A stretch of 40,871 nucleotides of DNA, taken from NCBI GenBank assembly GCA_003560595.1, contig PWKY01000052.1:1-40871 (forward strand), written 5' to 3'. A model generated the notes under the pieces. The model saw only the letters and a list, made by a program, of their open reading frames with translations, was not told the origin of the DNA and did not search any database. Positions within the stretch are counted from its first letter, which is position 1. Every line of letters starts with the position of its first letter. A program made the translations under genes and the position numbers. Below, piece after piece: positions 36,410 to 37,089 of the stretch. The DNA is from Thermoplasmata archaeon. Lineage in GTDB: Archaea > Thermoplasmatota > Thermoplasmata > Halarchaeoplasmatales > Halarchaeoplasmataceae.

Positions 36410-36772
36410 ATGGTGAAACCTATAATATACAACACTTTAAGAAGATTAGCGGCAGAAGAAGGAATAGACCTATGTTACCTAATAACCAAAAAAGGTAATG
36501 TGCTGGTCGGTCTTGGAGATGTTAAAAAATCAATCGAGGTTAGCTTTGGAACTCTTACCGCTACGATATACGGCGCATCTCTACAAACGAATAAGATACT
36601 TGAAGAAAAATATCCTCGAAGGATCTTAGTTGAAGATATGAAGGGATACATGATGCTCAAATATATTGATAAAAATCACTTTCTAGTTTTAAGGATCAAA
36701 AAGGAAATGGATACTAAGACCTTGGAGAAAGAGATAGAAAATGCTTGTTGGACTTTATCACAAGAGATATAA
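36410..36772 (+). CDS. Roadblock/LC7-like small protein
   Basis: 120-residue cytosolic protein. The pattern of an N-terminal helix (IYNTLRRLAAEEGID), a beta hairpin (LCYLITKKGNVLVGLG), a second helix (SFGTLTATIYGASLQTNKILEE) and the strands RILVEDMKGYMMLKYID-NHFLVLRIKK with a final helix matches the Roadblock/LC7 (profilin-like) fold, whose archaeal members often regulate small Ras-like GTPases. No GTPase is encoded nearby. The start at 36410 is fixed by GAGGTG seven bases upstream; the frame extends to 36335 but runs into the TATA box. The family call is by pattern only; unrelated alpha/beta folds are possible. Confidence 0.6.
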   Translation: MVKPIIYNTLRRLAAEEGIDLCYLITKKGNVLVGLGDVKKSIEVSFGTLTATIYGASLQTNKILEEKYPRRILVEDMKGYMMLKYIDKNHFLVLRIKKEMDTKTLEKEIENACWTLSQEI

Positions 36773-36777
36773 AAAAA

Positions 36778-36796
36778 GGTCCCGACTCCCGGATTT
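36778..36796 (-). repeat. Duplicated 3' end of tRNA-Tyr (19-bp direct repeat, distal copy)
   Basis: GGTCCCGACTCCCGGATTT (plus strand) is identical to 36968-36986, the tRNA-Tyr stretch from C74-C75 through the acceptor 3' strand into the T-arm. On the minus strand this distal copy is followed immediately by a run of seven T, a terminator-like end. The pair flanks the hairpin cassette exactly 190 bp apart. Confidence 0.85.
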
Positions 36797-36808
36797 TAGT
36801 CAGAATCA

Positions 36809-36955
36809 AAGATTCTAACTACTCACTGATCAGAGATTAGTTCGTGAGCAGGAACTGGTTCCTACAACTCACTGATCAGAGATTAGTTCGTGAGCAGGAA
36901 CTGGTTCCTACAACTCACTAATCAGAGATTAGTTCGTGAACCGGGGTTCAAATCA
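36809..36955. repeat. Tandem 46-bp hairpin repeats (two full, one partial)
   Basis: The 46-bp unit is perfect at 36821-36866 and 36867-36912, with a truncated third unit at 36913-36939 carrying one base change. Each unit contains an imperfect hairpin (ACTGATC-AGA-GATTAGT inside CTC/GAG) and a palindrome AGGAACTGGTTCCT. In the third unit the hairpin is perfect (ACTAATC-AGA-GATTAGT). The left end holds another hairpin (AGAATC-AAA-GATTCT, 36812-36826 region) and the right end TGAACCGGGGTTCA (36938-36951), which contains T-arm-like GGTTCAAATC. No coding capacity is seen. I see no cas genes or spacers, so it is not CRISPR. Confidence 0.85.
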
Positions 36956-36966
36956 ATAGAAAATCA

Positions 36967-37089
36967 TGGTCCCGACTCCCGGATTTGAACCGGGGACCTG
37001 GTGATTTCCGCGGGTGAATCGGGTCAAAGCCCGATAGTTTTAAATTCCAACTACAGTCACCCGCTCTAGCCAGTCTGAGCTAAGTCGGG
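36967..37089 (-). tRNA. tRNA-Tyr (GTA), with intron and encoded CCA
   Basis: Reading the minus strand: acceptor CCCGACT paired with AGTCGGG, U8-A9, D-arm GCTC/GAGC, anticodon stem GGTGA/TCACC, loop C-T-G-T-A-G-A with anticodon GTA at 37054-37052, variable loop AGGTC, T-arm CCCGG-TTCAAAT-CCGGG, discriminator A and an encoded CCA. C1-G72 and A73 agree with archaeal tRNA-Tyr identity. A 45-base intron at 37006-37050 sits at the canonical 37/38 position. Exons are 37051-37089 and 36967-37005. A TATA-like ATAAATAATAAAC lies upstream near 37128-37141 (minus strand). Confidence 0.93.
37006..37050 (-). other. tRNA-Tyr intron (45 nt)
   Basis: Placed between positions 37 and 38 of the anticodon loop, the usual archaeal site cut by the splicing endonuclease at a bulge-helix-bulge. 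It contains its own hairpin CGGG-CTTTGA-CCCG and the segment TCACCCGC, a perfect 8-nt complement of the exon-1 sequence GCGGGTGA that forms the 5' anticodon stem. I could not derive an unambiguous bulge-helix-bulge by eye, so borders are inferred from the mature tRNA fold. Confidence 0.75.

Follow-up and report, generated by a model that had tools for sequence, protein, structure and literature searches.

Downstream of a tRNA-Tyr gene in a Thermoplasmata archaeon lies a cassette of about 170 bp that probably belongs to a family of miniature hairpin elements, which are non-coding and strand-specific. These elements are found at tRNA ends in Thermoplasmata and, beyond this class, in Thermoplasmatota; the mechanism of their movement is what we infer. 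The window, that is, the whole analysed stretch of 40,871 nucleotides, belongs to a 1.89-Mb MAG (G000). The cassette is located between the tRNA-Tyr and a second copy of its 3' end, and a T7 tract follows this copy. On the minus strand, it reads as an inverted T-arm copy with CCGGTTC, three P3 hairpins split by palindromes, one P4 hairpin and the copied tRNA end (Table 1).

Table 1. Features of the tRNA-Tyr locus in the window, listed in the direction of the tRNA strand
Feature	Position	Strand	Basis
tRNA-Tyr gene with intron, intact	36970..37089	-	Rfam RF00005, 51.1 bits
X1, proximal copy of the tRNA-Tyr 3' end (T-loop to acceptor end)	36968..36986	-	19-nt exact repeat
X', reverse-complement-like T-arm copy, then CCGGTTC (GATTTGAACCCCGG); start of the cassette	36942..36955	-	sequence; same in relatives
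Palindrome GAACCCCGGTTC (P2-like)	36938..36949	-	sequence
P3 hairpin copy 1, stem flanked by CGAA/TGAG (tandem G.A)	36914..36938	-	model R1 match 36903-36942
Palindrome GGAACCAGTTCC copy 1	36897..36908	-	sequence
46-bp tandem unit copy 2, perfect	36867..36912	-	repeat analysis and sequence
P3 hairpin copy 2	36868..36892	-	sequence; R1 match 36840-36896
Palindrome GGAACCAGTTCC copy 2	36851..36862	-	sequence
46-bp tandem unit copy 1, perfect	36821..36866	-	repeat analysis and sequence
P3 hairpin copy 3, paired with P4	36822..36846	-	R1 match 36791-36850, 66.4 bits, E 2.4e-14
P4 hairpin GTTAGAATCTTTGATTCTGAC, invariant T.G mismatch	36799..36819	-	
X2, second copy of the tRNA-Tyr 3' end	36778..36796	-	19-nt exact repeat
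T7 tract, probable displaced tRNA terminator	36771..36777	-	sequence

An earlier reading of this DNA, made from the sequence only, had described the locus, and all of its descriptive claims turned out to be correct. The 19-bp tRNA-Tyr 3' end is duplicated exactly: GGTCCCGACTCCCGGATTT is present at both places. For an exact repeat of 19 nt inside 200 bp this is far beyond chance. The seven T of the tRNA strand (A7 on the plus strand) border the distal copy only. The intact tRNA is kept, and the terminator has probably been displaced. The two perfect 46-bp units, with a repeat period of 46, are accompanied by a diverged third that begins at 36913. The T-arm-like fragments are real as well (CCGGGGTTCAAATC at the start of the cassette), and the cassette contains no gene, that is, no ORF of at least 80 aa. 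The DNA fold has a z-score of -3.9 on the tRNA strand and -2.6 on the opposite one; the RNA z-score is -5.3. CCA after the discriminator base is encoded in the tRNA-Tyr gene and not in its second copy. ARAGORN with bacterial settings missed this intron-containing gene.

We read the flanks of 35 tRNA genes in G000. At least five of them (Lys, Gly, Ser, Ala and Tyr) have 3' arrays bounded by the gene's own 3' end, with repeats of at least 14 nt; downstream of Lys, Gly, Ala and Ser, the closing copy is 14-17 nt long. In two Val genes, the last 8 nt are repeated downstream. Further arrays are located at Met, Glu, Arg and several Leu genes, and several of these are cut by contig ends. Seven genes have 5' arrays that repeat at least their own first 12 nt, each copy being followed by a hairpin and an inverted copy. 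Six of the seven 5' matches are exactly nucleotides 1-12. At Arg, the 5' copy extends to the anticodon, and hairpins come after nucleotide 12. When the flanks were exchanged among the tRNAs, the mean match was about 6 nt, and the remaining longer matches came from neighbouring tRNA genes and isoacceptors. We confirmed that own-end repeats are tRNA-specific in G000. They were likewise seen in two further family members, and two complete genomes of other families had none of 12 nt or longer. The density of perfect hairpins was 3.1 per kb in the tRNA 3' flanks of G000 versus 0.32 per kb over the window. This count is crude: one control genome (G027) was intermediate and not clearly separated from the family genomes. 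The specific motifs P3 and P4 are therefore better evidence than hairpin density.

In the 3' flanks of Leu tRNAs of G000 (L080, L083, L084, L089), we observed a second array style, in which a long hairpin is combined with a short GGAC-GTNA-GTCC hairpin. These units begin at the GCA end of the tRNA and contain a recurring AGCGGAGCGA loop motif. Many contigs of G000 (C16, C30, C41, C44, C65, C71, C89 and others) have an end within or next to a tRNA gene or array. Contigs often stop at tandem arrays, which appear to break short-read assembly; the copy numbers are therefore minimum values. An assembly artefact as the source of the arrays was ruled out, since the same anatomy is present in MAGs from several projects.

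To describe the P3-P4 core, we aligned fifteen units from Tyr, Lys, Gly, Met, Glu and 5'-side Val arrays. In most units, P3 is a stem of 6-9 bp whose sequence is free to vary with complementarity kept. It is flanked on both sides by YGAR, which gives tandem G.A mismatches at the stem base. P4 has the form TTRGAA...TTCYGA, with a T.G mismatch in all fifteen units. Double changes were found in 10 of 16 pairs, and 97% of the cells in the alignment were paired, a figure that is flattering because we chose the units ourselves. The covariation score of the fifteen units was 0.52, compared with 0.18 for shuffled and less than 0.08 for slid partners, and this contrast is not explained by the choice alone. 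GTAG is located 5' of P4 in the Tyr and Val units; other units have GCTG, GCAG, GCGG or none of these.

The hairpins also have a preferred strand. A P4 scan of the strand pointing away from the tRNA gave 26 matches (24 distinct hairpins) of the T.G form and none of the mirror C.A form, and there were no P4 hairpins in the control genomes. Nine of the distinct hairpins are on the 3' side (sense strand) and fifteen on the 5' side (antisense strand). The P3 scan gave 13 outward and 4 inward matches and none in the controls. By our own tally of full P3-P4 units, made with the covariance model R1 where the tRNA was annotated, about 20 units are outward and 5 inward; the inward units are located at Ala, Ser and one Gln tRNA.

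Such structure and covariation could mean that P3 and P4 are selected as RNA. In this case, the 3' arrays between the tRNA and the T-run would be co-transcribed and would act as a structured RNA or as a tRNA-processing or termination module. The strong covariation fits this, the window cassette precedes T7, and many 3' units are closed by the T-stem in a cloverleaf-like manner. However, P4 reads outward on both sides of the tRNA, and the 5' copies are therefore antisense to it. Since P4 reads outward on the 3' and 5' flanks alike, the conserved strand does not follow the tRNA transcript, and it is mainly for this reason that we prefer a DNA element to an RNA. Against the RNA are also the inverted units, the absence of the cassette from close relatives at the same tRNA, and the Rfam search, which gave no match other than tRNA. 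We consider the RNA module unlikely.

In the 3' units, the core interrupts the T-loop of a partial tRNA copy (GGTTC, then CGAG, the core and GAC, then AATCC). On the 5' side, mirrored P4-bearing copies are located within copies of the tRNA 5' end, on the opposite strand. The copied part of the tRNA is sometimes longer, with the core in its T-loop: it begins in the variable region in G001 Tyr and in the D-arm in G099 Gln, and it includes the full T-arm in G008 Pro. An intact tRNA is present beside almost every array that we examined, and the arrays grow in tandem. Apart from the tRNA end itself, no target-site duplication was demonstrated. An alternative is that no dedicated element exists. As tRNA genes are quasi-palindromes, template switching and slippage during replication could have produced both the palindromes and the tandem partial tRNA copies. 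The presence of the tRNA end in both orientations within units (X and X') is consistent with such a by-product, as are the perfect tandem copies. Yet the same core sequence with its mismatches recurs at unrelated tRNAs and in distant families, its orientation is strongly biased, and the control genomes have none at the tRNAs examined. Apparently, replication errors are an improbable source, and a dedicated element at tRNA ends remains our preferred reading.

The search for further copies at tRNA genes, suggested by the sequence-only reading, found the same two-hairpin core at many different tRNAs. Model R1 detected it in 15 of the 16 genomes of the window's family, with 4-15 matches per genome. 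Among 300 genomes of the class, it gave matches in seven more, which come from three other families. The R1 matches are almost always located at a tRNA end. In the other-family cases that we read, they adjoin the 3' end of a tRNA (Leu, Tyr, Gln and others) whose own end is repeated. A phylum sample gave one genome of another class with a tRNA-Trp array. The hairpin motif was seen in relatives that are Thermoplasmata MAGs; their isolate names point mostly to salt and soda-lake samples. Within the window's genus, the same tRNA-Tyr carries the cassette in G000 and G001 and is empty in G002 and G003; these two genomes have the core elsewhere despite the empty site. The two Val genes of G000 have related units in a different order, and G014 Tyr has three near-identical units of 104 bp. 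The evidence of mobility is this presence and absence together with unit shuffling only. Patchiness, reordering and a wide but sparse reach in the genome sequences would fit a mobile or formerly mobile element. Viral carriage was rejected: in IMG/VR, the hairpin pattern matched two contigs that are unrelated, and for a second cassette pattern there was no match. A contig labelled Sumerlaeota (L107, PWGE01000106.1) starts with sequence that matches the tRNA-Val array in one of the Thermoplasmata MAGs (L104), which is probably due to misbinning.

Hairpin arrays or cassettes without an adjoining intact tRNA were observed at L092/L249 (G000:C65, about 54850-55500), L222 (G015:C24) and L113, and the copies in L092, L222 and G012:C6 have no intact tRNA alongside. 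At L222, there are tRNA-Lys-like end repeats on both sides. The main proposal of the sequence-only reading was that islands carrying an integrase had entered tRNA 3' ends and had then been deleted until only the attachment-site arms were left as a scar. Copies at sites without a tRNA and without a duplicated tRNA end were named as speaking against it. The few such cassettes come close to this result. Integration with a crossover in the T-loop would leave a direct repeat as seen here, in which the tRNA 3' end is duplicated from the T-loop onwards. However, G000 has one tyrosine recombinase, which is XerA-like, arrays are also located at 5' ends, and no island of intermediate size was found among the array loci read. 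The islands with an integrase at tRNAs in G014, G001 and G015 have no hairpins. At L232 (G014:C12) and L231 (G001:C155), the gene of a tyrosine integrase lies just downstream of tRNA-Ser, from which a small ORF separates it; both look like conventional islands. We regard the scar as very unlikely. The sequence-only reading had left two options, a heavily deleted island or a small non-autonomous element. The second one agrees with our reading; the first is not supported. The same core recurs at many tRNAs, at 5' as well as 3' ends, in 15 of the 16 genomes of the family, and none of the arrays that we read encloses an integrase or any other gene.

We also looked for an enzyme that could move the element. 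The XerA-like recombinase is present in each family genome, and that of G000 matches the gene of its relatives. As a mover it was rejected: it is a core gene of the family and is also found beside tRNAs without a detected core. The XerA-like gene is located a few hundred bases from a tRNA in G013:C97, G010:C14, G014:C24, G008:C23 and G009:C28, in some cases with an array. A reverse transcriptase was rejected as well, because 15 of the 16 genomes in the family lack one. All nine good genomes have Y1 transposases. G000 has two, both with a downstream ORF as in IS605-type elements. A cognate RAYT was not found in G000: the one Y1 transposase of the two that was tested scored 35.7 bits on the RAYT model, with a cut-off of 80. 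IS605 ends were rejected as the source of the hairpins, since the left-end hairpins that we read are unlike P3 and P4 and R1 matched only one of 12 tnpA loci; in a second set, no further locus was found at E < 0.1. In G012:C6 (L148, about 600-1500), a gene of an IS200-type TnpA (NF033573, 94.7 bits; PF01797) is located between two P3-P4 units of the same orientation. This locus adjoins a broken-off ORF with a weak PIN-domain match and is a possible non-tRNA insertion or composite element. The TnpA may be the mover, or an IS may have landed in the array by chance. Several array-bearing genomes have no recognisable TnpA, although their assemblies are incomplete. An IS200/IS605-type single-strand transposase acting in trans is thus a weak candidate. 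We assign no enzyme as the mover, because nothing at the other tnpA loci supports this candidate and some genomes, although incompletely assembled, have arrays but no TnpA.

Several known systems have common features with the tRNA-end elements. Double-hairpin elements of fungal mitochondria are located in intergenic regions, often beside tRNA genes, and are thought to be mobile. The same is described for the RHEs of sponge mitochondria (PMC2800124). Single or double intergenic hairpins beside tRNA genes are a likeness to our family; the mitochondrial elements differ in being organellar and, as far as they are described there, in having no systematic capture of each neighbouring tRNA's end. The E. 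coli TnpAREP needs a folded single strand and a stem mismatch (PMC8266576). REP/BIME sequences, which TnpAREP (RAYT) mobilises, are similarly short, non-coding, strand-specific hairpins in arrays with a conserved stem irregularity. The irregular strand-specific hairpin is found here in the invariant T.G of P4 and its orientation of 26:0. In contrast to REP, the tRNA-end elements lie at the ends of tRNAs and hold a copied tRNA end and a two-hairpin core, the GTAG tag is present in some units only, and G000 lacks a detected RAYT. The PATEs of Haloquadratum walsbyi are archaeal gene-less IS605 derivatives as small as 52 bp (PMC3119063). They are alike in being small and gene-less, in their palindromes near the termini, and in the archaeal host and hypersaline setting; however, PATE palindromes are IS605 ends, from which P3 and P4 differ as noted above, and the tRNA-end repeats are new. 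Archaeal integrative elements at tRNA genes also target the 3' part of the tRNA, restore the tRNA and leave a direct repeat, as is seen here, whereas our elements have no integrase and no cargo, occupy 5' ends too and consist of tandem hairpin cores. Because the tests for the GTAG tag, RAYT and IS605 ends failed, we do not file the family under REP or PATE. By analogy, it may at most work like REP, PATE or the mitochondrial hairpin elements. No description of hairpin arrays with captured tRNA ends was found in the open-access literature, and the family is apparently undescribed.

We suggest that the element would move as DNA and be recognised as a folded single strand, with the mismatches marking the strand. 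It would insert into tRNA-like sequence and could persist because the insertion brings a copy of the tRNA end and the tRNA function of the host is spared. Unequal recombination between the repeated ends might then enlarge and shuffle the arrays. In the window, one insertion at tRNA-Tyr would have been followed by an internal tandem duplication of 46 bp. A bolder version is a tentative idea that is doubtful at present: a distinct class of single-strand hairpin elements across Thermoplasmatota, driven by an unrecognised recombinase, with dedicated insertion into tRNA T-loops and D-arms while the tRNA end is copied, for example by fold-back priming on a nicked tRNA strand.

By eye, hairpin arrays that include copies of tRNA ends appear to lie on one side or on both sides of up to about half of the tRNA genes of G000. 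If our reading is true, minimal mobile DNA would have a new niche at tRNA ends, and the arrays would be a source of false partial tRNA calls and assembly breaks. The family would also be a natural experiment on the tolerance of tRNA processing for decoy ends, and a lead to an unrecognised single-strand recombinase.
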